IMG/VR virus record: IMGVR_UViG_3300018416_000071
Location: 1-30,378 of that record
Length of the DNA stretch: 30,378 nt
Strand: one strand, 5' to 3'
Origin: a virus
Below the pieces are notes generated by a model, which saw nothing but the letters and a program-made list of their open reading frames with translations, did no database searches and had not been told where the DNA came from. A program made the position numbers and the translations under genes. Shown here piece after piece: positions 13,266 to 30,378 of the stretch. How positions within the stretch are numbered: the stretch's first letter is position 1; every line of letters starts with the position of its first letter.

Positions 13266-15146
13266 TTATTCTGCGCCTTGGCCACCAAGAAGATCACGAA
13301 CGACAACCAATCCGTACATATCCGGACGAACCATCTTCTTTCCGTAACGTGTCATAACACCTTTACGAGGAACGAAGTCTTCAGGTCCAAAGATAGTTGG
13401 AGTTGTTTGCAATGGCACGTAAGGAGCGTAAACATATCCACTTTCCAAGAAAGAAGAACCTTTACGACCAACCAAGATTGCGTTACGTGGGAAGTAAGGA
13501 TCAACGATAACGTCGAACTTACGGTTCAAAGAACCAACCTTAACTGCGCCGATGTCGCCTTTGTCAGCGTCAGCAGTGATGTTTGCACGGAAACCAGCAG
13601 TAAACTCAAGAATGTTTGCAACTTCAGGTGAAACAACGCAGAAGTTAGCACCGCCACGCAAAGTCTTACGATGGATTTGTGCAGAAACGTCGTTGATAGT
13701 TTCGATCAAAGTTTCATACCATTCTGAAACAGTACCAGTGAAGTCAGGGGCAGTTGTGCTAGCTCCAACTTCAGCACCAGTCAAACGGTTTACAAACATT
13801 CCAGGTGAACGAGACCAGTAGAAAGTTCCAGCAGTTGCGCCGTTAACCAAGTCAGACAAGATTTCACGGTCGATTTCAAGAGCAATTTGCTCAGAAAGGA
13901 TAGAGGTCAATTCTACTTCAGCATCCAAGTTGTGGTAAGCGTTCAAGTCTTGACCCAATTCTGGAGTCCACTTTGCTTTCAACTTCTTGGTTACCGCTGT
14001 GATTGCGATTGAGTCAACTTTGATGTCGATCTCTGGGATCTCACCTGTCCCTTCGAGTGCCCAATTGGCTCCACCAGCTATTGAGCCAGCACCACCAGTC
14101 GCACTATTATCAATAGTATCTTCAGTTGGATAAGAAGCTTTAGCAACTTTTTCAACACCATCCGTATTGCTGATTGCAGCAGCCGCTAAGTCAATTCGAC
14201 CCAATGTTGTAATATCTGTTGTTCCAACGTAGATAAATGTGAACTTATCAGTTGCACGATCATATTTAGTTAAGCGTCGAACTTGCTTGAAGTTCAAAAC
14301 ACCATCTGAGTCTGAATTGGAAACAGGTGTCCCTGCAGCATTAAAGGTTGCAATTGGAGCGTGAAGTTGAGACAATTGTTGCATGTTGATTCTATCTGCA
14401 GCGGTTTCAACATCAGATTTAGCCAAAGTCAAAGCCAAGAAGTATGCAGTTTGGCCAGCATTTGCATCAGTTTCTGCGATTACGTCTGCGTCAAATTCAA
14501 TAAGTTTCAACAAATCGCTTGTAGGACCAGCAGGGTCTGTTGTCAACAAAGCAGTTGCAGAACCATCAAGTGGTCCAGACTGAACGTCGTTCAAGACAAC
14601 GTAATTTGTGGTAGCAACTAGTTGTGTCGTGTTGAAAGAACCAGTTGGTGAAGAATAAGCAGCTGCAAAACCATATGGTTGCTTGTCTAAAGAGTTAGAG
14701 TTCAATTGAACACCACCAGTTACTTCAGAACCAACAATCCCTTGACCGTAGATTGAATCGTCAGAGTTTTGACCCAAACGAGCTTCAGCTTCACGACCAC
14801 CTAATTCTGATCCGAATGTGAAATCCATGAAGAAGATCAAACCAGAAGGCAAAGACATTGGTTGTACAGAAACCAAATCGTTTGCAATCAATCCAGCGAA
14901 TACACGACGGACGATTGGGAAAGCAACAGCAGCGAAACCTTCAACGTCGCCACCAGCCATAGTGTTAGACTCACGCAATAATTCGCGAGCTTGGTTTTCC
15001 AAAAGACGAGCCATGCCAGCCTTCTGTTCGTCGTTAGACAAGCCTTCCAAAAGACCAGTCTGTGACCATTTATTCAAAAGTGATGCACCTTCTTGTTGCA
15101 TGTTGCGGTGTACCATCCCTTCTGTAAGAGTTTCAATAATAGACAT
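13266..15146 (-). CDS. gp23: Major capsid protein gp23
   Basis: This 626-residue protein is the T4-type major head protein. Diagnostic parts are the N-terminal helical propeptide, FPIVRRVFAGLIANDLVSVQ and PMSLPSGLIFFMDFTFG (about residues 76-112). The core KKLKAKWTPELGQDLNAYHN follows, with ILSEQIALEIDREIL, and the C-terminal part is GAVKVGSLNRKFDVIVDPYF. An LRE|S site (E59/S60) aligns with the T4 gp23 maturation cut (after E65) and fits the LxE rule of the gp21 protease. The protein is about 100 residues longer than T4 gp23 (521), and most of the extra sequence lies at roughly 115-330. It forms the hexameric shell lattice. It follows gp22 by 20 nt with an AAGGAG site and ends at a strong terminator. 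Confidence 0.96.
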   Translation of the reverse strand: MSIIETLTEGMVHRNMQQEGASLLNKWSQTGLLEGLSNDEQKAGMARLLENQARELLRESNTMAGGDVEGFAAVAFPIVRRVFAGLIANDLVSVQPMSLPSGLIFFMDFTFGSELGGREAEARLGQNSDDSIYGQGIVGSEVTGGVQLNSNSLDKQPYGFAAAYSSPTGSFNTTQLVATTNYVVLNDVQSGPLDGSATALLTTDPAGPTSDLLKLIEFDADVIAETDANAGQTAYFLALTLAKSDVETAADRINMQQLSQLHAPIATFNAAGTPVSNSDSDGVLNFKQVRRLTKYDRATDKFTFIYVGTTDITTLGRIDLAAAAISNTDGVEKVAKASYPTEDTIDNSATGGAGSIAGGANWALEGTGEIPEIDIKVDSIAITAVTKKLKAKWTPELGQDLNAYHNLDAEVELTSILSEQIALEIDREILSDLVNGATAGTFYWSRSPGMFVNRLTGAEVGASTTAPDFTGTVSEWYETLIETINDVSAQIHRKTLRGGANFCVVSPEVANILEFTAGFRANITADADKGDIGAVKVGSLNRKFDVIVDPYFPRNAILVGRKGSSFLESGYVYAPYVPLQTTPTIFGPEDFVPRKGVMTRYGKKMVRPDMYGLVVVRDLLGGQGAE

Positions 15147-15166: not shown

Positions 15167-16339
15167 TTATTTTATGCCTGCAAGCTTTTGCATTTTCTCC
15201 AAAAATGGATCTTTGCTTTGCTTGTTTTCGTTAATGTTTTGTCTCGAATTCAACATAGAACTTAAGTTCGATCTTCGGTTGACTGTCTCGCTAAGTGATT
15301 GTGGACCTTTCTTGCTGTTAGGCGTTGATCCCACTGTAGCTTTGAGTGTCTCGTGAAGTTGTTTAGCTTCCTTCGTAGACTCCGCGTTTGCGATGGCATC
15401 GACAATTTTTGACTTTTGTCGCTCATTCAGGGAGGCATCACCCAGAGTGCGGTTCTGGTATAAAAGTTTTGCGTTGGACAATAAAGCCTCATCTAAATGT
15501 GTCTCGAGTTTTTCGAGCACATTTGCCATTGCTTCATTTTGCTTGGCGAGGGCTTCAATTGTCTCATATAATTCTGTTTGTTTTGATTCAGCTGAATCGT
15601 CTTCTTCTGAAGACTCTTCTTCTGATTCTTCTTCCAACTCTTGTTCGTCTCGTGCAAGTGCTAGATCCTTATTCTTTCTTGCTTCAACGTCCATTGGTCC
15701 TGGATGACCTGTTGGTCTGTAAATATCATCGTCATCGATGTGAAGCTCTTCTTCTAACATGTTGAGGATCTCATCAAGTTGCACATCTTCTTCGTTTATT
15801 TCTTTTCCTTCTTGGAGGGTTGCCAATAGGTCGTCAAGGCTTTCATCACCACCGGAGGTGTCATCACCCTCTGGTTCTGCTGCAAGGTCTCCTGCGGGCT
15901 CTGAGGGAGCATCAAGGCCACCAAGAGCATCATCGTCTGAGCCACCCAATGCTTCTTCTTCCTCTGCTGACATTTCAAACTCGCCGAGATCGAGATCGAT
16001 CATGCCGTCGCTTGTTTGAGGTAAAGAGTCAACAAGAGCATTGAACTTAACTGACATGTCGTCATAGCGAGAGTCCCAAGCTGGTGGTGCTTCTATTGTT
16101 GCACCTTCTTGTCCGCCTGCGAAAGATGCGGGCATTGCGTCTGCTTCTTCGTTTAGCTCTTCTTCTGCTTCTTGTATCATAGAGTTGGCTGCTGTGAGGT
16201 TTTTATTCTCCAGCATTACATCAACAGCTTCCTTAATTTGGTGAGTGTATTTTTCAATAACAGATTGCTCTGCATTTTTAATGGCTTGTTCTCGCAACGC
16301 AGCTGCGTCGGCAATCGCCTGCTCTAGCATGTTTGACAT
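15167..16339 (-). CDS. gp22: Prohead scaffold protein gp22
   Basis: This 390-residue protein, counted from the ATG at 16339 (MSNMLEQAIADAAALREQA), is strongly acidic and helical, with long Glu/Asp/Ser stretches (EELEEESEEESSEEDDSAES) and a basic C-terminal end (DPFLEKMQKLAGIK). It sits directly before gp23, the T4 position of the major scaffold gp22 (269 residues), and the N-terminal LEQAIADAAALREQAI helix and acidic centre suit that role. It fills the prohead and is degraded by gp21; several LxE or IxE tripeptides could be cut sites. The start at 16339 is chosen over a longer one because AGGAG precedes it by 6 nt and the candidate promoter lies inside the longer version. Confidence 0.85.
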   Translation of the reverse strand: MSNMLEQAIADAAALREQAIKNAEQSVIEKYTHQIKEAVDVMLENKNLTAANSMIQEAEEELNEEADAMPASFAGGQEGATIEAPPAWDSRYDDMSVKFNALVDSLPQTSDGMIDLDLGEFEMSAEEEEALGGSDDDALGGLDAPSEPAGDLAAEPEGDDTSGGDESLDDLLATLQEGKEINEEDVQLDEILNMLEEELHIDDDDIYRPTGHPGPMDVEARKNKDLALARDEQELEEESEEESSEEDDSAESKQTELYETIEALAKQNEAMANVLEKLETHLDEALLSNAKLLYQNRTLGDASLNERQKSKIVDAIANAESTKEAKQLHETLKATVGSTPNSKKGPQSLSETVNRRSNLSSMLNSRQNINENKQSKDPFLEKMQKLAGIK

Positions 16340-16366
16340 CAATTTTCTCCTAGAATTCTTTTCTCC

Positions 16367-16376
16367 TTTAAATAGT
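16367..16376 (-). promoter_or_regulatory. ACTATTTA-type candidate late promoter before gp22-gp23
   Basis: The coding strand reads ACACTATTTAAAGG, ending 27 nt before the gp22 ATG and placed just after a double terminator. It would drive the scaffold and major capsid pair. Confidence 0.55.
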
Positions 16377-16387
16377 GTAGCGATAAA

Positions 16388-16444
16388 CAAAACTCCAAAA
16401 GGGAGCTTAAAAAGAAAATGCCCTTGAACCAATTTGGCTCAAGG
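16388..16444 (-). terminator. Tandem terminator before gp22
   Basis: The first hairpin on the minus strand is CCTTGAGCC-AAATT-GGTTCAAGG (16422-16444), followed by TTTTCTTTTTA. A second, smaller hairpin CTCCC-TTTT-GGAG (16393-16405) is followed by TTTTG. It closes the LamG gene that ends at 16481. Confidence 0.75.
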
Positions 16445-16480: not shown

Positions 16481-18322
16481 TTAACCTTGCGCAGCAGTCT
16501 CGATAGACATTTGACGATCAGCTTGTCCAGTAATAGCAGCAACTTGTGAATCAGTTAGTGCAGTTCCAGACTTAATCTGAACTGAATCTATAGAACAAGG
16601 TAGAGAACTACCAGTTACGGATCCACCAAAAGCAAGAGCACCCAATGCGAAGTTTCTATTCGAAGCCATCTTCATGAGATTTCTATTTTGGTTTAATAAT
16701 TCTCCACACTTAACACCATCAACAAAAAGCTTCAGGTCATATGTCGAGCCGTTGTAGCTCCAAGTCATTGCAAGATGCGTCCATTCGCCTGCAACAAACG
16801 GCTTGCTACTGATACCCTTTGGAGAACCTGTCCACAAGTCCCACAAAATTGTTTTAAATTCTATGTTACCGGAGCCATCTTTAGATATCGCAAGACGGAA
16901 CTCGTTATTCGAATCTGCTGCGTTACCTGCTATGTATTTCCAACCAGTCCAACTTGTGCTATCAGGATTGAACCACATAGAAAGAGTCATTTCTTCCTCA
17001 GTTCTTGTGCCGTCGACATTAAAGTCAACGATACCATCTGTGTCTAGGGACACCAAAGTAACAGAAGCATTAGCTGGTTTCACAAACACATTGTTTGTAA
17101 TCAATGCACCATTACTGAGGTTGTTAGAAGCTGATGTTAGTTCTTCGATAAAAGTTCCAGCAATGACGTTTCCGCCGCCGCTTTGTTCCTCTTCATAAGC
17201 AGCTGCATCGGCTACAGACCAACCTCGTGTCCCGCTATTATACATAGCCAAGATTTGAGCGTCGGATAGTGTAACATCATCAACCCACTCCATGAAGTCA
17301 AATTGCCCATTACCTTTATAGCTTACAGAACCGTTGTAGTTCTCAGCACCTATGTAGTGCTTAGTTCCATTAGCGATCCCAGCGTAAGCTCTAATTCTCT
17401 TAGAAGAAGAGTTTCCGGTTTTGGTGTAGACTTCTTGACCGTCAATAAACAACTTTACAGTCATAGATTTAGAGCTGGTAGAAGTGTAAGCGATATCCGT
17501 TTCAACAGTAACTAAGGCATGGTGCCACTCATTGAGAGTTAGCGGTGTTGACAAAGTGACCCCATTTGCTCCACCGATTGGAGTTGAAATGTGGAGAAGC
17601 GAAGAACTAAACATTCTTAGTCCAAAGTCAACTTCCGATGGATAGTGTTGATCCGAATATAGTCCCATCTGAGATTGTTCTGGATTGAACCACATTGAGA
17701 ACACTGCTGTTGTTGCAGTTGTGCTCGGAGCAACCATTCCAGACTTCTTGTAGTAAGAAGGGGTCACAGCAGATGTCGAAAGAACGCCATCAGTGAGTGC
17801 TCCTCCTCCAAACATTGTAAACTCTTCCAAGAACGTTCCAGCGCCGGTTGGAGTAGACGATGAACCGCCTTCCTCTGGGACGATGAACGACTCGTTTGCC
17901 AATAGCCAAGCCAATGAGCCATTAGACATGACTGTAAGCATCTTGTTGTGATCATCAGCTGTATAGATAGGGACTTCGTCGATATCATAAAGCTTCGTGC
18001 CTCTATCGATTCCTACTAACAAAGGAGTGGACCCTTGGTAAGATTCTGCTGAGAAAAAAGAAACATTGATAGTCTCTTCGGAACCGGTAAGCGACTTGAG
18101 ATAGTAGCTTTGGTAAGTGTTGTTGAATTGATATTGTGGATCTAAAGAGTTCCACGTGTAGATTGTCGACCAAGATGAACCATCCCATCCGTGAATTGAA
18201 ACATTCTTTCCCTTAAAGACAACAGAGACTTCACCTGAGTGAGTCACTGGTGCAGAGAAAGCGTTTTCAATAACAGGATTGGATGGAAAAGCGGTCAACT
18301 TTAACATTTTTTGCTTTTTCAT
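16481..18322 (-). CDS. Double-LamG virion surface protein with N-terminal attachment module
   Basis: This 613-residue protein has three parts. Residues 1-145 form a beta module with WDGSSWSTIYTW and an IYTADDHNKMLTVMSNGSLA end that resembles the 133-residue protein encoded just before it. A Gly/Ser linker follows (150-162), then LamG domains at about 165-385 and 395-613. The LamG domains have the usual strand signs (FSMWFNPEQ, LFIDGQEVYTK, LKLFVDGVKCGELLNQNRNL, FALGALAFGG). The second LamG resembles the first LamG of the giant protein at 9393-13154 down to the SGTALT(D/E)SQVAAI tail. It is probably a glycan-binding fibre or decoration. A GGAGGT precedes the ATG and the gene lies 15 nt after its small partner. 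Confidence 0.8.
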   Translation of the reverse strand: MKKQKMLKLTAFPSNPVIENAFSAPVTHSGEVSVVFKGKNVSIHGWDGSSWSTIYTWNSLDPQYQFNNTYQSYYLKSLTGSEETINVSFFSAESYQGSTPLLVGIDRGTKLYDIDEVPIYTADDHNKMLTVMSNGSLAWLLANESFIVPEEGGSSSTPTGAGTFLEEFTMFGGGALTDGVLSTSAVTPSYYKKSGMVAPSTTATTAVFSMWFNPEQSQMGLYSDQHYPSEVDFGLRMFSSSLLHISTPIGGANGVTLSTPLTLNEWHHALVTVETDIAYTSTSSKSMTVKLFIDGQEVYTKTGNSSSKRIRAYAGIANGTKHYIGAENYNGSVSYKGNGQFDFMEWVDDVTLSDAQILAMYNSGTRGWSVADAAAYEEEQSGGGNVIAGTFIEELTSASNNLSNGALITNNVFVKPANASVTLVSLDTDGIVDFNVDGTRTEEEMTLSMWFNPDSTSWTGWKYIAGNAADSNNEFRLAISKDGSGNIEFKTILWDLWTGSPKGISSKPFVAGEWTHLAMTWSYNGSTYDLKLFVDGVKCGELLNQNRNLMKMASNRNFALGALAFGGSVTGSSLPCSIDSVQIKSGTALTDSQVAAITGQADRQMSIETAAQG

Positions 18323-21499: not shown

Positions 21500-21548
21500 A
21501 ATAAAAAAACTTCTATAGTTTCGGTTTAACCGGCAATGTAGAAGTTTT
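21500..21548 (-). terminator. Terminator after the beta-fibre gene
   Basis: AAAACTTCTA pairs with TAGAAGTTTT, with an inner CGGTT/AACCG hairpin, and is followed by TTTTATTTTTTATTG on the minus strand. The stop codon of the preceding gene overlaps the stem base. Confidence 0.7.
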
Positions 21549-23706
21549 ACATGATGAAGAATTTAGACTGGCCATCACAATAAATATTGATGGATGAGCC
21601 TGGAGAAGACAAGGTAATACTTGATCTATTTTCAATGAGTTGATTTGATTGTGGAACGATTGTTAGTGTGTAAACATCTGCGTTTTCTAATTCGTCCTTT
21701 ATGACAAATATTTGTCCGTCAAATAATGATGAGGCACTTGGCAAAGTTATTGTTGTGTTTTGTGTTGCTTGGATGCCTACAAAATAATCATCTGTTGCCA
21801 TTGAGTAGGACTGAGTGGTTACGGTCCTGTTTCTAACTTCTATTCCTGATTGAACAGCAGGTGCCAAGATTACGTTTCCATTAGAGTCTACAGACAGAAA
21901 GTTATTTGCAGATCCCTGTTGAAGATTTGTTAAGTTAAGGTTGGGAATTATCACCTTACCAGACTGTGGTAAGATTTCAAGATCGCCTGTTGAGTTGGTT
22001 TTGAAATCTGTGTATCGATGTTGGCTTATTCCAAAAACAAATTCAGAGTTTGTCAATCTTAATTGTGGGTTCTCGGAGTCTTTGATATCGACCATTCTGT
22101 CGGCTGTTGTCTTGTTGATTGCAAGAGGTCCTCCGATGTTTGCTGCATTTGCAACATTAAGTGAAGTTAGCGTTCCCAAACTTGTTACATTCGGCTGTGC
22201 TGCGGTGCTAAGTGTGCCTCCAAGATTTGTGGAATTTACTGTTGTTGCGTCAAGAGTTGGTGTCACAATGTTGTCACTGTTAATTGTTGTGTTGCCATTC
22301 GTGATTGTTGTCGATGTGATGATTGTAAAATATCCCGCAGCTGAAGAGACGGAGACCGATGATGACACTTGACCAATATTGTCCAAAACAATGTCGCCAT
22401 TAGAACCCACTACGAGCTCTCCAAGCACGTTTGTGTCGTTAGCTATGTCTAAGGTCGAAGTGTTTGTTGAGAGAGTTGTGGAGCCATTATTGACGCTTAT
22501 AGATAGCTTTTCGGTTGTGGTTCCAACTTTAAATTGATTTGATGTTGCTTCGATTTCAAACTTTGCACCATCAGAGTAGTCTCCAACACCAATGAGTCCG
22601 TTGTTAATGAATAGCCCATTGTCAATTGCAAGACCATTTGGTACAGACATCGTGTCTGCATTAACAACAATCGTGTCCGTTGCTTCATCTCCAAGAGTCA
22701 AAGTGTCTGCCGACACTGCGAAGTCTGTTGTGCGGGCTATGAAGGATCCTGTAACCACAAGGTCTCCAGAAACATTAAGATCGCCTGTGACGTTTGTCTT
22801 GCCGTTAGATGGGCTTATGGTGAAGTCGCCATCTGTGTTTGTGTGAAGGTCTGTGTATTCGAGATCTTGAACACCGAACACTCCACGCTGACTTGTCAAT
22901 CGTAATTGAGTTGATGTTGACAGAATCTCTGATGTTGCTTGAGGGTCGGAGACATTTACTCCGACTTTGTTCTCGGCGCTTTTAACATAGAGAGTTCCGT
23001 TGATTGTTGCATCGTTTGCAACGTTTAGACTTGTAAGAGTTCCAACCTCTGTGATGTTTGTTTGAGATGGAGAGGTCAATAACCCTTCGAGAGTTATTGA
23101 TTGAACGTGAGATGCGTTCGCAATCGAGCCTGTTTCAATCGTAAGGGTTCCATCGGTGAATTGTTCAACTTGAATGTCATTAACATCAACTGAATCGAAT
23201 AGCCCAATAGAGCCGCTGAATTGAGATGCATCGATCTCCAATGCTTGAATGTCTCCAACAACATCGAGGATTGCACCATCAAATGTGAGGTTAGCTTCGG
23301 CATTAACCGTGTTATCGTTGACAGAGGTTACAAGACGATTGTCTCCGTGGTTTGTATAATAGTTGATCGGAACGCCATCTAGGTCTCCACCCCAGCCATA
23401 GTAGTTGTGTGCTGTGACGTTGCCTGATGCGTTTAAGGAACCTGTGAACTGGTGTAAGTCGTCTGGCGTGTCTCCAAAGACTGAAGAGCCCGAGACCTCG
23501 AAATGAAAGACTGTTTGAGTTTGATTTTGGATTTCAAAGTTGTGAGCAACAATGTTTCCAGAAACAAGAAGCGAGTTGAGATCATCCGACCAAATAAGAT
23601 TTGGATCGTGCTCAAGTTCAGTACCTGGTCCGGCAAGCTGGATAGATCCTTTAGGACCCGATCCTTGTCGACCGACAACATATGCCCATCCAAATTCCTT
23701 TGCCAT
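21547..23706 (-). CDS. Beta-rich fibre-like structural protein
   Basis: This 719-residue protein starts AKEFGWAYVVGRQGSGPKGS and continues with many short strands of the type SGNIVAHNFEI, LNASGNVTAHNY and LNVSGDLVVTGS. These are repeats typical of fibre shafts in marine myophages. Two longer internal copies share an (Q)LRLT...FG...YTD..TN..GD..I.P..GK core, near residues 265-310 and 545-590. The C-terminus (about 645-719) is a beta domain ending INIYCDGQSKFFIM, similar in pattern to the end of the 135-residue module at 8938. It is probably a tail fibre or fibre shaft. No chaperone or intramolecular autoprotease motif is visible. The ATG overlaps the previous stop by one base, so the genes are translationally coupled. 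Confidence 0.75.
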   Translation of the reverse strand: MAKEFGWAYVVGRQGSGPKGSIQLAGPGTELEHDPNLIWSDDLNSLLVSGNIVAHNFEIQNQTQTVFHFEVSGSSVFGDTPDDLHQFTGSLNASGNVTAHNYYGWGGDLDGVPINYYTNHGDNRLVTSVNDNTVNAEANLTFDGAILDVVGDIQALEIDASQFSGSIGLFDSVDVNDIQVEQFTDGTLTIETGSIANASHVQSITLEGLLTSPSQTNITEVGTLTSLNVANDATINGTLYVKSAENKVGVNVSDPQATSEILSTSTQLRLTSQRGVFGVQDLEYTDLHTNTDGDFTISPSNGKTNVTGDLNVSGDLVVTGSFIARTTDFAVSADTLTLGDEATDTIVVNADTMSVPNGLAIDNGLFINNGLIGVGDYSDGAKFEIEATSNQFKVGTTTEKLSISVNNGSTTLSTNTSTLDIANDTNVLGELVVGSNGDIVLDNIGQVSSSVSVSSAAGYFTIITSTTITNGNTTINSDNIVTPTLDATTVNSTNLGGTLSTAAQPNVTSLGTLTSLNVANAANIGGPLAINKTTADRMVDIKDSENPQLRLTNSEFVFGISQHRYTDFKTNSTGDLEILPQSGKVIIPNLNLTNLQQGSANNFLSVDSNGNVILAPAVQSGIEVRNRTVTTQSYSMATDDYFVGIQATQNTTITLPSASSLFDGQIFVIKDELENADVYTLTIVPQSNQLIENRSSITLSSPGSSINIYCDGQSKFFIM

Positions 23707-24728
23707 TACTCATCGATTCCCGGTCCGGTCAGATCGTACATGCGAGATGCTGGAATGTTTGTAAGAGAAGCACAGACGCTTGCAATGGTTGCATTGTTCG
23801 GACAAGACAAGAAAACTTGCTTGGTTTTGCATTCCATGGTTATCTGCTCTTGCCCAACCAGTTGAATTTTGTGACGTGCTTCGGCGTTTTCGATTAAGCG
23901 ACCATCAACGAATGAAACGTTTGATGTCAAACCATTCAGTATGAGATCGTTACCAGAAACCCTGTCTAAAACAGTTCCCAATGCATCTGGTGTAGAATAG
24001 AATGTCTTATAATTGTTGTCTTCGAAAGCCCAGTAAGAAATGAGAGAAGGGTGTGCTGGTTGAATCATTCCGCCTCCATTCCATAGGCTTCGAACTTCTT
24101 GATCAGTTAGGGCGCTAGAAAACAATGCAACTTCGTCGTAAGTTCCATCCAAGTTAACACCAGAGCCATTATCACCTATTTGAAATTCATTCGCTGAAGC
24201 GAATGGGTTTGTGGATGTTAGTTCCAATTGTCCATTTACAAATAGTTTACTGTCGCTATCTTTAAGAACTAAAGTAAAGTTGTACCATGTATTGGGCGCA
24301 ATAACAGTCGTACCACTGGTTGCAACGCCATCTACCAAAATTCTAATTACTGAAGAGCCATCAGTCCTTATACCAGTACCTGCGCCCACAACCGGTTCAA
24401 AATCTATAATCCTTTGATTGGCAACAGTGGTATCTGTTTTAACCCAAATTGAAACAGTAAGTTCAGACAGGGAGCTAAAGGTTGTTGAGTAATATTCACT
24501 AGTGCCATTAAAACTTATTGCACGCTTTGGCTCACAAAACATAACCTCAAGGATGTGTCCTGAGCCACCTGAGTTGTGGTCGTTGCAAACGTGGATCTCG
24601 CGTGTCACGTTTGGGAACTCCAATAGAACTTTGTCTCCGGATGCTAAGCTTAAGTCTTTTAGCCAAGGTACGCCGGCAACTTGGTAAGAGCCAACATTTT
24701 GAAGACCAACAGAATAGGATGAACTCAT
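23706..24728 (-). CDS. LamG-bearing paralog of the small SVGL module protein
   Basis: This 340-residue protein starts SYSVGLQNVGSYQVAGVPWL and ends ASLTNIPASRMYDLTG, matching the start and end of the 141-residue protein encoded just upstream. Between the halves (about residues 68-283) lies one LamG domain, with LTVSIWVKTDTTVANQRIID, DSKLFVNGQLELTS and the DEVALFSSALTDQEVRSLW tail. The LamG is thus inserted into the small fold rather than added to its end. It should bind a glycan on the host or on another surface, and the flanking fold should fix it to the virion. Start overlaps the previous stop (ATGA), and the next gene overlaps by one base. Confidence 0.8.
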   Translation of the reverse strand: MSSSYSVGLQNVGSYQVAGVPWLKDLSLASGDKVLLEFPNVTREIHVCNDHNSGGSGHILEVMFCEPKRAISFNGTSEYYSTTFSSLSELTVSIWVKTDTTVANQRIIDFEPVVGAGTGIRTDGSSVIRILVDGVATSGTTVIAPNTWYNFTLVLKDSDSKLFVNGQLELTSTNPFASANEFQIGDNGSGVNLDGTYDEVALFSSALTDQEVRSLWNGGGMIQPAHPSLISYWAFEDNNYKTFYSTPDALGTVLDRVSGNDLILNGLTSNVSFVDGRLIENAEARHKIQLVGQEQITMECKTKQVFLSCPNNATIASVCASLTNIPASRMYDLTGPGIDE

Positions 24729-25150
24729 TGCGTAATTCCCTCGAGACCTTCAAGGTCAAACATTCTACTTGCAGGAATATTGGTCAACTCTGCGAAAAGT
24801 TGCACTTCACCAGTCTGACTGTTTGTCGTTGGCGAGAAAAAAACTTCTTTACACTTAAGGTTGAATTCCACTTGTTCACCTGCTAGGATTAAGAAGAAGT
24901 TAGCGTTTGTATTTGCACCTTGAGTAAAGTCAAATGTAGGTACTACCGTCAAGTCATAAGGTGCAAAGTGCATTCTAACATCATGATTGCTTGTAGATTT
25001 GACAATTAGTTTTTTAGTAACAGATCCAAATTGAAATCTAAAGGATTCGTCTTGAGTAGTAGGAATAGCGGAGCTACTAAGATAAGGGACTCCACTTACC
25101 TGATATGCGCCAACGTGATTTAGCCCTACGCTGTAAAAATTTGAACTCAT
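24725..25150 (-). CDS. Small SVGL module virion protein, plain version
   Basis: This 141-residue protein reads NFYSVGLNHVGAYQVSGVPY at the start. A charged beta segment follows (KKLIVKSTSNHDVRMHFAPY), then FFLILAGEQVEFNLKCKEVF, and the protein ends AELTNIPASRMFDLEG. The YSVGL..VG.YQVSG start is one I associate with virion proteins of marine T4-like phages, but I cannot name its place. The gene downstream encodes the same fold with an inserted LamG domain. It has its own candidate promoter, and the ATG lies 20 nt after the motif. It is the plain partner of a co-translated pair (4-nt overlap). Confidence 0.75.
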   Translation of the reverse strand: MSSNFYSVGLNHVGAYQVSGVPYLSSSAIPTTQDESFRFQFGSVTKKLIVKSTSNHDVRMHFAPYDLTVVPTFDFTQGANTNANFFLILAGEQVEFNLKCKEVFFSPTTNSQTGEVQLFAELTNIPASRMFDLEGLEGITQ

Positions 25151-25170: not shown

Positions 25171-25180
25171 ACTAAATAGT
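25171..25180 (-). promoter_or_regulatory. ACTATTTA-type candidate late promoter
   Basis: The coding strand reads TAACTATTTAGTCC, overlapping the TAA stop of the bS21 gene and ending 20 nt before the ATG at 25150. No hairpin lies between. Confidence 0.45.
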
Positions 25181-25374
25181 TATTGCTTATTCTTCTTGAT
25201 GCGTGCTCGCCATTTTTTACGAGCAAGACGTTTTTTCTCTGATGGAGAAACGAAATGTCTTTGGTCTCGGACTTCTTGCATGATGCCAAGCTTCTTACAT
25301 TTCTTTGTGAAACGTTTGATGAATTTTTCCATCGCCTCGTCTTTGCGAGGTTTCATTTTATAATTGGTAGCCAT
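25180..25374 (-). CDS. rpsU: Phage-encoded ribosomal protein bS21
   Basis: This 64-residue basic protein, counted from MATNYKMKPRKDE at 25374, matches bS21 of the bacterial small subunit. It has an EAMEKFIKRFTKKCKKLGIM helix, EVRDQRHFVSPSEKKRLAR and a Lys/Arg C-terminus (E. coli bS21 has 71 residues). bS21 sits near the mRNA exit and anti-Shine-Dalgarno end of 16S RNA and helps initiation. Phage copies are known from aquatic phages and may alter which messages the host ribosome starts on. The start at 25374 is chosen over the 9-residue-longer one because AAAGGGA precedes it and it lies 2 nt after the upstream stop. Its place between the prohead protease group and surface genes means late expression. 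Confidence 0.92.
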   Translation of the reverse strand: MATNYKMKPRKDEAMEKFIKRFTKKCKKLGIMQEVRDQRHFVSPSEKKRLARKKWRARIKKNKQ

Positions 25375-25376
25375 TG

Positions 25377-25802
25377 TTATCCCTTTGCTAGTTTTGACCA
25401 CACGGCCGAAGATGTTCCAAAAGCAGACAAGTCAACACCTGGATCATTAGGTGCAACGCCATCAAGAGCTTTCGCTCCCTGAGGTGATGTTGCTGATCTT
25501 CCGCTATCTCTGCTAGACATTGGCGTTGTTCCTTCGAACAAGTCGACTCCATTATAAGAGTCTCTACCAATTGAGTCAAGCATTTTGCGGCGTTGCATTT
25601 TGCGTTTACGCTCTTGGGCTTCGTAATCGATTTGTGGTTTTTGATAAGTTGGTTGGGTTTGAGTTTCGACAATGCGTTGACCGCCGGTTCCCTTTACAAC
25701 CTCTGAAATGATTCCAGAGAGAACTCCCTCTTCAAAGATGACCTCTTTTATGCACTCTTTGATGAGTGGCTTAAGTGTCTTTTTTAATTCAGCTTTGTTC
25801 AT
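25377..25802 (-). CDS. Conserved gp21-companion protein, possible prohead core
   Basis: This 141-residue protein starts NKAELKKTLKPLIKECIKEV and continues IFEEGVLSGIISEVVKG, a helical N-terminus of a type seen beside gp21 in marine T4-like phages. The middle is basic (EAQERKRKMQRRKM) and the C-terminal half is Gly/Ser/Asp-rich and probably disordered. Its ATG follows the gp21 stop directly (TAAATG). The size, charge and position recall T4 core proteins gp67/gp68, which also lie near gp21, but the sequence does not clearly match them. LxE/IxE tripeptides (LFE, IFE, ISE) could be gp21 cut sites. I infer a prohead-internal protein with modest confidence. Confidence 0.65.
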   Translation of the reverse strand: MNKAELKKTLKPLIKECIKEVIFEEGVLSGIISEVVKGTGGQRIVETQTQPTYQKPQIDYEAQERKRKMQRRKMLDSIGRDSYNGVDLFEGTTPMSSRDSGRSATSPQGAKALDGVAPNDPGVDLSAFGTSSAVWSKLAKG

Positions 25803-26426
25803 TTAGTCTCCAAGAATCTTCTTAAATAGATTGTCAATGTTATTTTCTTTTTGTTCTCGCAACTTTGTTGAGAAGCGATTTGGCTTTGAGGCCTTCTCTC
25901 CGGGATAAACATAAGCATCTGGAGTTGATGGTTCTGATACAATGTCAAAACAAATTAGTTGAAAGTCTTCTTCAACAATTGTTGATCCCATTGATTCTCG
26001 AACTGATCCAAGTCCTCGTGATGATATCCCAAGTTTCACACCAGCATTGATGAGATCCTTCAGGATTCTACCACTAGGAGTGTCTAGGACCTTGATCTTG
26101 CCCATTACGTCCTTGCCTTCCCACCAACAGTCGGTGACCATGTGAGAAACGTTTTTAAGGTTAATTACAGAGTCGTCAGGGTGATCTAACTCACCACACG
26201 CTCGGTTGTCTTTAACGATAGCCATGTAGTTATCCATCTCTCTCTTGAGAACTTTGTGTGGATACTTACGGCCGTTACCATTCTTTTTGTCTGCTGTCTG
26301 AATGCGTCCAGTTAAGTAGACCACACCTTCTTCGACAACTTCTTTCTTTTCTCTTTCTGTTAGAAGATCCAAGCATCGACCATCGGGGCATAGTGCATGG
26401 AACTCTCTTAATAATTGTTTACTCAT
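25803..26426 (-). CDS. gp21: Prohead maturation protease gp21
   Basis: This 207-residue protein, counted from MSKQLLREFHAL at 26426, is a herpesvirus-assemblin-type serine protease of the T4 gp21 family. The signs are GVVYLTGRIQTADKKNGNGR, KYPHKVLKREMDNYM, ACGELDHPD with the catalytic His at 82, and GVKLGISSRGLGSV with the catalytic Ser at about 135. It resembles T4 gp21 (212 residues) in length. It cuts scaffold and capsid propeptides after LxE motifs inside the prohead. A GGAGAG lies 6 nt before the ATG. A longer TTG-started form is less likely. It follows the structured RNA segment and terminator at 26440-26541. Confidence 0.95.
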   Translation of the reverse strand: MSKQLLREFHALCPDGRCLDLLTEREKKEVVEEGVVYLTGRIQTADKKNGNGRKYPHKVLKREMDNYMAIVKDNRACGELDHPDDSVINLKNVSHMVTDCWWEGKDVMGKIKVLDTPSGRILKDLINAGVKLGISSRGLGSVRESMGSTIVEEDFQLICFDIVSEPSTPDAYVYPGEKASKPNRFSTKLREQKENNIDNLFKKILGD

Positions 26427-26439
26427 TCTTCTCTCCAAT

Positions 26440-27206: not shown

Positions 27207-27944
27207 TCAAACTGACTCATCGTAATTTCTTTTAAAGCTAGCAAACGCAGCTTGGTCTAGGAACTTGTTGAACTCTCGCTCGTTCATGAAGCCTGAATTT
27301 AGAACTTCATCAAGAAAGTCCATATGGTTTGCTTCGTAAGTTGCGATTGACTGTTCATAGATTTGTGGATTCTTGTGGTCTAAACTATAGTCGGTTGCGT
27401 TGTCTGAGTCTGATACTAGAACATCGCAATCATCATCTGGGTCTGGAGTGTCTTCGTCATAATCGAACGTGTCATTACCAGCTGGTGTCTCTACTTTGTC
27501 AAAGGTTTGAGAATTCTTTTCGAATGATTTCCATTTATCAACTGCGTCTTCTTTCGATCCAACGTTCTTGTCTGAGGTAAGACCAGCGTTGTTTTGATCT
27601 GCTACATAAAATGCAAACCCATAAAGTAATCCTCCGTATCCGACATTTCTAAATTTCTCATCAGTGTGGATTGCTTCGATGTGCCAAGATGGATTCATGC
27701 CATCTCCTTTTAAGCACGGGCCATCGCTCTTCAAGCTTGACAAAGTAACTTCTCCGATTATTTGTAAATCAGAAATCATCTGGGCTGCTGTTCCTTTTCC
27801 AGGAGTGTACATTGTGAACTCTGCATCACTGCCGGGCGAAATGCCAACTCTTAAGCAGACTTCGCTATCATCAAGTCGAGTTCCGCGAGCCTTTTCTTCT
27901 TTGAGGAATCGTCTCCATCCTTCCATAATAACGTCTTGTCGCAT
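27207..27944 (-). CDS. GNAT-family acetyltransferase-like protein in the head gene cluster
   Basis: This 245-residue protein has WHIEAIHTDEKFRNVGYGGL at about 87-106, the GNAT motif A pattern with the R-x-x-G-x-G acetyl-CoA loop (R99, G102, G104), followed by a helix (LYGFAFYVADQ) and a strand. The N-terminus DVIMEGWRRFLKEEKARGTR is a short amphipathic helix and the C-terminal 100 residues are acidic, with an Asp cluster (DYDEDTPDPDDDCDVLVSD). The start overlaps the upstream stop (TAATG). GNAT enzymes move acetyl groups to amines of proteins, peptides or small molecules. Its target is unknown. The acidic tail and the location suggest a head or internal protein role. The core GNAT motif is convincing, and the remaining sequence is not diagnostic. 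Confidence 0.7.
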   Translation of the reverse strand: MRQDVIMEGWRRFLKEEKARGTRLDDSEVCLRVGISPGSDAEFTMYTPGKGTAAQMISDLQIIGEVTLSSLKSDGPCLKGDGMNPSWHIEAIHTDEKFRNVGYGGLLYGFAFYVADQNNAGLTSDKNVGSKEDAVDKWKSFEKNSQTFDKVETPAGNDTFDYDEDTPDPDDDCDVLVSDSDNATDYSLDHKNPQIYEQSIATYEANHMDFLDEVLNSGFMNEREFNKFLDQAAFASFKRNYDESV

Positions 27945-28573: not shown

Positions 28574-29378
28574 GTCTCTTTACCTCCGCCAAAAGGTCTT
28601 GGATGTAAAAGATTTCTTCAACCACGGCCTCATTTAAAGCTTGAGTTGCATAACTATCCAGCTTTGCCTTAACTTTTTTAAAATTTTCATTTAGAGCAGG
28701 ATCTCGACCTTCTACAATCTCGGTGCTAACGGCTTCTTTGAGTCGTCCAATTTCTGAATTTAGATAAGACTTAAGTCCCAATCCATTATCAGAAAATGAT
28801 GTAATGAAGTTTGTTAAAAGATCTTTTTGCTCTTTCAATAAAGAGTGTTCGTAAGTGCTATTGAATCTGTTGACAAACATGCTAAATTCTAATTTGTCAA
28901 TGTGTTTCATTTCGGTCAAGACCTTTTCTGATCTTCCAAGATACTTTACACAGTTGTCTTCAAGCATAATGCGCTTCTTGGCTGATAGCTTATCTTGCTG
29001 CAAGAACATCCCTACAGTGGCAAGATCTTTATAGTTTGGAACAAAGATACCAAATGAATCACTTCCCAATGACTTGTTAATTCTGTTAATAAGACTTGTC
29101 TGCTCATTAAACACTTCTTTGCGATCAACAGCCTCAAAGTCTTTTTTTGTCTCAGACAACAAGCGACGAGAATAACTTGCTTCCAATTCTTTTGATTCTA
29201 GTAAGGATCGATAAATATCAAGCTCTTGTTTAAGAGCCTTTCCTTTTGAGAAGAATTCTTTTAAAAGACCCTTGACTATTGTTTGTTTGCTTTTGTTTTC
29301 TTGAACAATTGCTTTTGTTAATTCACGAATCAGACATTCGTAAAGAAAAGCGGTATTTCTTTTCTTATTATGTTTCAT
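28563..29378 (-). CDS. Conserved helical protein following the portal, unknown function
   Basis: This 271-residue protein is almost entirely helical, with KRNTAFLYECLIRELTKAIV at the start, a KKDFEAVDRKEVFNEQTSLI segment and a LEFSMFVNRFNSTYEHSLLK stretch. The C-terminal helices are charged. It is not one of the T4 proteins I can name. It follows gp20 with an 11-nt overlap, as do other portal-adjacent genes in T4-like phages, and is preceded by an AAGGAAG. T4 has core proteins gp67/gp68 in this position. The length and composition allow a prohead-core function, but I see no direct match. Its gene overlaps the next by 11 nt. Confidence 0.6.
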   Translation of the reverse strand: MKHNKKRNTAFLYECLIRELTKAIVQENKSKQTIVKGLLKEFFSKGKALKQELDIYRSLLESKELEASYSRRLLSETKKDFEAVDRKEVFNEQTSLINRINKSLGSDSFGIFVPNYKDLATVGMFLQQDKLSAKKRIMLEDNCVKYLGRSEKVLTEMKHIDKLEFSMFVNRFNSTYEHSLLKEQKDLLTNFITSFSDNGLGLKSYLNSEIGRLKEAVSTEIVEGRDPALNENFKKVKAKLDSYATQALNEAVVEEIFYIQDLLAEVKRHVS

Positions 29379-30378
29379 CTGTATCTTCCTTTTTTTTCAA
29401 TGATTCTAGAAGCGTTTTGATTTCTGCTTCAGATTTAAATAGTTCTTTCTCTCCAAAATCAACAGCTTCCGTCACTCCTCTCGAGAGAGAGTCTAATCCA
29501 CCAAAGCCGAGTTTTCCAGGAAATGTTTTTCTCGCTGTGCCTATCTCTCCTGAGGCTGTGTTATTCATTTGCTTTTTCATTCCACCTTTTCTGTAGGTCA
29601 ACTTATGTCTCTTATAAGGTCCTCGAGGTTTTGCGTCGTCATCTCGCTTTGCTGGTGGTTCTGCCATAAGATCTGGTTCTGTGTCTGAACCTGTGTCAGC
29701 TGGTGCTTCATCACCTCCACCAGAGTCTCCACCAAGATCTAGATCTCCACCAGAGTCTCCTCCAAGGTCAAGATCTCCACCGCCACCACCGGAGTCACCA
29801 CCAGAGTCGGCTTCAGCAGCGGCCTCTAGGGCTGCCATGAATTTCTTATCGGAGAACATTTCTCGTTGCATTCGTAGATATTCTTCTTGAGATAATCCCA
29901 ATAGGTTTTCTGAAACCCAACGACGAGAGAAGTAGCCTTCTGTTGCTGCACCAGCAATGTCAAACTTAGTCTTCCAGTGTTCGAGCTCTTGCATCTCTGC
30001 GATCTTTGATGGGTTATTAAGACTTAATTTAAAGTTCAACAAGTCGTCTCCACGATATCCCATTGTGTAAAGATGCACGATGCCGACCTTTTCCAACTCC
30101 GAGATAAGCACTCGCTGAAGTCTTTGAATCGTTCTTGCGAACCTAATGTCTTTCTGTGCGAGAGTTGTTTTATCCTCAGTAGCACCTTCTCCCATCGATA
30201 GATAAGATTGAGGAACTTTTAATGCCGAGAACAATTTGTCTCGAAGATACTTAACGTCTTCAATCTGTGCCGTGAATTGTCCACCAGGAAGGTTGACAAT
30301 GTCCGTAGAAGACTGTCCGTTTCTAATTGGGATAAAGTAGTCTTCCTCAATCGAAAGAGGGTTGTAGCGCAAATCTAC
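29368..30378 (-). CDS. gp20: Portal protein gp20 (C-terminal part)
   Basis: About 336 codons are visible and the start is beyond the window edge. The visible N-terminus reads VDLRYNPLSIEEDYFIPIRN and continues with VNLPGGQFTAQIEDVKYLRD, KLFSALKVPQSYLSMGEGA and the RFARTIQRLQRVLISELEKV helix. These are hallmarks of T4 gp20, the dodecameric portal of the head vertex. The C-terminal 130 residues form an unusual extension: a Gly/Asp/Leu repeat (LDLGGDSGGDLDLGGDSGGG), an acidic Ala/Pro part, a basic PRGPYKRHKLTYRKGG stretch and an acidic helix. The next gene overlaps by 11 nt. Confidence 0.95.
   Translation of the reverse strand, partial: VDLRYNPLSIEEDYFIPIRNGQSSTDIVNLPGGQFTAQIEDVKYLRDKLFSALKVPQSYLSMGEGATEDKTTLAQKDIRFARTIQRLQRVLISELEKVGIVHLYTMGYRGDDLLNFKLSLNNPSKIAEMQELEHWKTKFDIAGAATEGYFSRRWVSENLLGLSQEEYLRMQREMFSDKKFMAALEAAAEADSGGDSGGGGGDLDLGGDSGGDLDLGGDSGGGDEAPADTGSDTEPDLMAEPPAKRDDDAKPRGPYKRHKLTYRKGGMKKQMNNTASGEIGTARKTFPGKLGFGGLDSLSRGVTEAVDFGEKELFKSEAEIKTLLESLKKKEDTDET
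29700..29810 (-). repeat. Gly/Asp/Ser repeat in the portal tail
   Basis: Near-identical short units encoding GGDSGG and DLDLGGDSGG occur several times in tandem in the C-terminal extension of gp20. The tract is likely to vary in length between related phages. Confidence 0.7.

Follow-up and report, generated by a model that had tools for sequence, protein, structure and literature searches.

The stretch of DNA analysed here (the window) is the IMG/VR virus record IMGVR_UViG_3300018416_000071, 30,378 bases that carry a T4-like set of head and tail genes on the minus strand. Two adjoining genes in it encode a protein of 141 amino acids, termed here P or the plain subunit, and one of 340 amino acids, termed A or the armed subunit. 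Judged by their sequences, P and A are paralogues; both have an N-terminal arm and a predicted single jelly roll, and in A a pentraxin-like LamG domain is inserted between strands 4 and 5 of that fold. We lean, by a small measure, towards a reading in which the two proteins would sit on the head of the virion and assemble into one structural hetero-oligomer, one subunit of which would show a head that adheres to glycans. The features concerned are as follows.

24725..25150, minus strand: plain subunit P, 141 amino acids; conserved N-terminal arm (SVGLNHVGAYQVSG.P) and single jelly roll
23706..24728, minus strand: armed subunit A, 340 amino acids; arm and jelly roll as in P, with LamG between strands 4 and 5
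23871..24533, minus strand: LamG insert of A, residues ~66-286, pentraxin-like/concanavalin A-like, by Pfam PF13385 and fold
24725..24728, minus strand: ATGA stop/start overlap of P and A, read from the sequence

Sequence relationship of P and A

The two proteins are alike at both ends. In a BLASTP comparison, residues 1-62 of P align with residues 1-59 of A at 37% identity (E 8e-9) and residues 80-135 with residues 281-335 at 46% identity (E 3e-10), two high-scoring segments that bear out the statement of the initial annotation that the first ~60 and the last ~57 residues are common to the 141- and 340-residue proteins. A profile of 15 long (armed) proteins matches the P of the window at both ends (E 1.4e-12 and 1.8e-11), the profiles of relatives recover both halves in both directions, and hhalign returned the N-terminal half at 98.9% probability. 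That the likeness of the flanks is a product of chance or an annotation artefact is vanishingly improbable: chance is excluded by the two matches of the 15-protein profile, the BLASTP values of both halves speak against it, and the likeness is repeated in 48 distinct armed proteins. The 4-nt overlap of the genes had also been pointed out initially; the junction reads ...ACG CAA TGA / ATG AGT TCA..., and the ATGA was confirmed at the position given above.

Predicted folds and the LamG insert

Structures were modelled with AlphaFold2, P on 40 relatives and A on 15. The model of P (mean predicted local distance difference test score, pLDDT, 72.8; predicted template modelling score, pTM, 0.67) has eight strands, at residues 22-28, 37-40, 43-52, 58-61, 85-88, 93-96, 102-107 and 115-126. 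That of A is the better one (pLDDT 83.6, pTM 0.82), with flanking strands at residues 21-28, 32-37, 40-49 and 59-63, then at 287-291, 295-298, 304-311 and 314-326; the strands of the LamG domain run from residue 69 to 275, between jelly-roll strands 4 and 5. In a strand-by-strand comparison of the two models the four plus four flanking strands of A match the eight of P one to one. As the strands of the first half of a jelly roll would, from the nature of the fold, pair with those of the second, the flanks of A should be able to close into a sandwich. It had been claimed beforehand that the insertion lies inside the fold, a claim that flanking halves unable to form the fold of the short protein would contradict; this outcome is absent from the models, in which the flanks of A keep all eight strands of P.

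The N-terminal arm is the most conserved part of P (3.4 bits per column vs ~2.1 elsewhere), yet it is unfolded in the monomer model, a combination that fits an intersubunit contact by a segment that folds on a neighbour. We take P to be a small structural subunit made of a single jelly roll with a conserved N-terminal arm. Its best structural matches among those listed include jelly rolls of viral vertices and turrets: the penton protein VP9 of SH1 and of HCIV-1 (Z 8.2 and 8.1, 85-86 residues aligned), followed by PM2 P1 (Z 7.4), the HFTV1 turret (6.7) and PR772 chain 6q5u_O (6.3), together with unrelated cupins and pilins; the list may omit other solved folds, and absence from it proves nothing. 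A profile search of all PDB sequences, up to E 1, returned no sequence relative of the jelly roll.

The insert itself is matched by Laminin_G_3 (PF13385) at residues 75-212 of A (E 1e-17, 65.1 bits vs a gathering cut-off of 27.6), and the domain predicted at ~66-286 agrees well with the ~68-283 first assigned to it. Its structural matches are PAPP-A (Z 20.8; 199 residues, 3.1 Å), PTX3 (Z 19.3) and CRP (Z 17.8), all of them collinear. A circular permutation of LamG, suggested by the order of its motifs, was rejected on account of this collinear alignment with pentraxins and PAPP-A.

Within the clade of P+A loci mean identity declines from 0.88 for the prohead protease gp21 and 0.85 for the portal to 0.56 for P, 0.50 for the flanks of A and 0.35 for the insert, a gradient that appears to fit the pattern of exposed parts. 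Between the window and locus L001 the flanks of A are 89% identical and the insert 38%. The LamG head thus changes while the frame stays, as the insert diverges far more than the flanks around it. The insert is presumably a glycan-binding head. It could instead be a module for protein-protein contact, such as a socket for a downstream fibre or a bump that stabilises the shell, and no glycan adhesin, which we regard as quite unlikely; LamG and ConA-like folds do also make protein contacts (laminin, neurexin, PAPP-A), and the identity of the insert slightly tracks that of the neighbouring fibre-like gene (Spearman 0.41), but no other part of the cassette is as poorly conserved as the insert, and in some viruses the LamG is doubled or tripled; both features fit a role in variable receptor binding better than one as an invariant internal contact.

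Occurrence and architecture in related viruses

Three scans of IMG/VR yielded 66 loci (the 66 relatives of P of the first scan), 80 loci, and the best 78 of 345 relatives; after the removal of repeats at least 125 distinct loci formed the sample for the architecture counts. P stands alone in 68 of the 125, is paired with A in 22, precedes A in two copies in 21, is fused to a second P ahead of A in two, and is present as P+P in two more, the rest being loci cut by contig ends plus L159, which is discussed below. Nearly all of these loci sit in one head-gene cassette. In all P+A loci the two genes are spaced by -1 or -4 nt, and wherever the flanks are readable A is accompanied by P. At least 48 distinct armed proteins were found (337 to 1617 amino acids), with inserts of 214-1503 amino acids at the same loop in all of them; Laminin_G_3 was matched in 31 of the 34 that were scanned, some of which have two or three LamG stretches. 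In L160:5793-6671 (293 amino acids) and L172:7548-8399 (284 amino acids) two plain copies are fused and followed by an armed copy; the 172- and 163-residue stretches in L160 and L172, respectively, which had been candidates for further inserts, are no insertions and belong to these tandem fusions.

A separate case is L205:5011-7500, where the first of three jelly-roll copies bears a C-terminal extension of ~700 residues with a weak Ig (immunoglobulin)-like match (Pfam 0.0012); this is arming by C-terminal fusion and not by loop insertion.

Outside these records the family was not encountered. Searches with tblastn using P, A and the relatives L044 and L037 gave no match at E<=1e-5 in 50,697 INPHARED phage records, and up to E 10 only chance-level matches appeared in them; neither PHROGs v4 nor Pfam has a family for the jelly-roll part, and no relative was confirmed among 84,980 prokaryote genomes. 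The jelly-roll family of P and A is undescribed, yet common in IMG/VR.

A tree built on the jelly-roll halves, with the insert left out, has one group (94) that joins the plain members of pairs to copy 1 of the triplets and to the first fusion halves, and another (80) that joins copy 2 of the triplets to the second fusion halves; the armed copies of pairs form one clade (95). As the copies are grouped by position, the subunits have kept separate identities, which is expected of distinct places in an assembly or hetero-oligomer. The tree also parts the armed copies of the pair and triplet clades, but the approximately unbiased test does not reject a single armed clade (p 0.61, 0.47), so that the LamG insertion may have had one origin or separate ones in the two. 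Codivergence of P and A was set aside as evidence of contact: the Pearson partial correlation is 0.70, but the Spearman values are 0.25-0.45, no more than with other neighbours.

Co-assembly of P and A is made likelier by the P+P+A operons, by the two viruses with fused plain copies and by the absence of any A without P at readable loci; it is plausible, and better supported than from the sequence of the window alone. One alternative explanation is that both are virion proteins that form separate homo-oligomers at different sites, the overlap of their genes reflecting duplication and compact packing. This we judge unlikely, since A never occurs without P where this can be read, since the covalent fusion of plain copies in L160 and L172 sets two different jelly rolls side by side, and since the triplets keep three distinct orthologous copies, even though short overlaps are common in phage operons, the codivergence is unspecific, and the armed copy of L159 is kept apart.

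Gene neighbourhood

The genes that surround P and A in the window are the following.

21547..23706, minus strand: fibre-like protein, 719 amino acids; directly downstream of A, and a syntenic neighbour in most related loci
25180-25401, minus strand: S21-like ribosomal protein gene, lying between the prohead protease and P
25803..26438, minus strand: prohead protease gp21, Peptidase_S77 (Pfam 3.6e-33; phrog_207 6e-59)
29368-30372, minus strand: portal, of the T4-like head set
15167-16432, minus strand: scaffold-like protein, of the T4-like head set
13266..15146, minus strand: major capsid protein (MCP) gp23, HK97-type, 626 amino acids (Pfam PF07068, 1e-74)

Several other large proteins are encoded between the fibre-like and scaffold-like genes, and the sheath, tubes and hub lie beyond gp23. 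The related loci keep nearly throughout an order of portal ... prohead protease, small protein, S21, jelly roll(s) and fibre-like gene, with the scaffold-like gene and the MCP further on. It is from this gene neighbourhood, and from it only, that we infer P and A to be virion proteins; the 719-residue fibre-like protein is possibly their partner in the virion. A position on the tail, neck or baseplate, where P and A would anchor the fibre-like protein and the LamG would be an ordinary tail-side adhesin, is in our estimate somewhat unlikely. The fibre-like gene does follow the jelly rolls in most loci, and jelly rolls occur in baseplates too (9f4b is among the structural matches); the cassette, however, lies between the prohead protease and the scaffold-like and MCP genes, with the sheath, tube and hub genes far off at the opposite end of the window. 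By itself, gene order is a weak argument for either head or tail.

The S21-like gene holds its place between the prohead protease and the jelly rolls in nearly all related loci. In Microcystis phage Mel-JY01 (L212:22429-23595) an unrelated protein of 388 amino acids takes the jelly-roll place after S21.

The best cultured matches of the MCP are Flavobacterium phage immuto, Microcystis phage Mel-JY01 and Rhodothermus RM378, ahead of the cyanophages. So far as such matches can indicate, this is in line with the Far-T4 groups, for which a link to marine Bacteroidetes has been reported (PMC4360716, PMC7198788). Promoters of the Flavobacteria type were tried as a clue to the host and rejected, as TAnnTTTG is not enriched (17 vs 23 expected). 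About 200 residues of gp23 (~102-303) are uncovered by the best stretch of either gp23-type PHROG profile and are possibly an insertion domain.

A second LamG carrier is encoded in the head region of the window, a protein of 613 amino acids (16481-18322) with LamG at residues 432-595 and a weak sialidase-N-like stretch at 268-346. At 27207-27944 the window encodes a protein that starts with MRQDVIMEGWRRFLKEE and holds an acetyltransferase-like stretch (FRNVGYGGLLYGFA). N-termini of the MRQDVIMEGWRRFLKEE kind and of the MKLNKETLKRIIKEEL kind recur on unrelated neighbouring open reading frames in L009, L016, L068 and L071. They recall, as we presume, the capsid-targeting sequences of T4 that are cut off by the gp21 protease, and their bearers may be packaged in the head.

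Proposed assembly and function

In the mechanism that we propose, A would be a duplicated copy of P into which a pentraxin-like LamG domain entered at the loop that connects strand 4 with strand 5 (EF loop in the usual jelly-roll naming); because the ends of LamG lie close together, the domain can leave and rejoin the loop without breaking the sandwich. The two genes would be translated in tandem via the ATGA overlap, and P (or P1 and P2) and A would most probably assemble into a single mixed ring or trimer on the particle, with the arm docking each subunit onto its neighbour or onto the shell. The armed subunit or subunits would hold out the glycan-binding head, plain subunits would occupy the places where this bulky head would clash, and first attachment would come about through binding of the LamG heads to surface glycans, as has been suggested for the turrets of HFTV1. 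A wider generalisation is offered tentatively: that in one lineage of HK97-type tailed phages, widespread in the sea, duplication of a jelly-roll decoration subunit gave rise to an asymmetric hetero-oligomer in which one of two or three distinct paralogues is armed, and that the EF loop of the armed one may be a standing docking site where one to three LamG domains (inserts of up to 1500 residues) are loaded and replaced while the frame is constant, giving a modular platform for glycan adhesion.

Several observations weigh against a mixed, glycan-binding assembly on the head. The model of P alone is of modest confidence (pLDDT 72.8), and a jelly-roll Z of ~8, a value that common arrangements also reach, shows no kinship. 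By ranks, the codivergence of P with A does not exceed that of P with its other neighbours. In L159 the armed copy (L159:7971-9104) has a divergent N-terminus and lies upstream of the prohead protease gp21, with P at the usual place; this armed subunit has been either displaced or independently gained. None of the cultured phages among the 50,697 phage records carries the family, and none of its proteins has so far been observed in a virion. In the cultured phages nearest by MCP, immuto and Mel-JY01, no counterpart is annotated at the corresponding position, which makes the subunit dispensable for such capsids.

If the proposal is correct, it describes how abundant uncultured T4-like viruses of the ocean may first contact polysaccharide-coated hosts, and this contact would be made by a subunit family unnamed in any protein-family library searched. 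The pair of plain and armed subunits looks like a modular platform that sticks virus particles to the sugars of cell surfaces. The natural series of one, two or three paralogues, fused pairs, and one to three inserted domains shows stepwise how a symmetric homo-oligomer could turn asymmetric and come to have just one armed subunit. A loop that takes inserts ten times as large as the fold that hosts them also provides a natural display scaffold that can be tested.

Comparison with known systems

To our knowledge, no case has been described in which a small jelly-roll subunit carries an inserted LamG domain and has a plain paralogue next to it, and the listings of the literature searches contain none. 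By profile and fold the insert of A belongs with the Laminin_G_3/concanavalin A-like domains of phages (PF13385; PHROG 8510, 701). Phage shell and tail-tube subunits are known in plain and Ig-armed forms (frameshift products, Hoc), in which the extra domain is usually C-terminal and is supplied through a frameshift or by a separate protein. As in P and A, one structural subunit is present there in a plain and an armed form, the armed part being a sticky beta-sandwich; A differs in having apparently arisen by gene duplication and loop insertion.

The N-terminal residues of VP9 of SH1 and HCIV-1 clamp the neighbouring subunit, and the protein is an adaptor for different spikes (PMC6414509). P resembles it in its predicted single jelly roll, and VP9 is its best listed structural match; SH1 and HCIV-1, however, are archaeal, membrane-containing and tailless, and VP9 is without an inserted domain. 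The capsid turret of HFTV1 combines a base hexamer and a glycan-binding head trimer on a tailed virus, and reversible first attachment through its carbohydrate-binding domains has been proposed (PMC12494034). The assembly put forward here would likewise consist of two proteins on a tailed virus that hold out carbohydrate-binding domains, whereas the base and head of HFTV1 are separate proteins, with no plain and armed copies of one subunit, and the host is archaeal.

PR772 has a double-jelly-roll MCP and a P5 whose appendage is C-terminal. In its penton three armed P5 subunits, which carry the receptor-binding part, and two plain P31 subunits share one ring, held by N-terminal residues or arms, and the plain ones have been suggested to ease crowding (PMC6750898). 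The virus of the window differs in being T4-like with an HK97-type gp23, the appendage of A lies within a loop, the sequences show no similarity, and the mixed ring of P and A is a proposal; membership of the PRD1-type pentons is not claimed, given the HK97-type MCP and the lack of a sequence match. Like P31 and P5 of PR772 and PRD1, P and A are two paralogues that share a small, here predicted, fold and of which only one is armed, encoded here in one operon, and with an armed jelly roll, a plain jelly roll, an arm and tightly coupled genes it is the PR772 penton that they resemble most.

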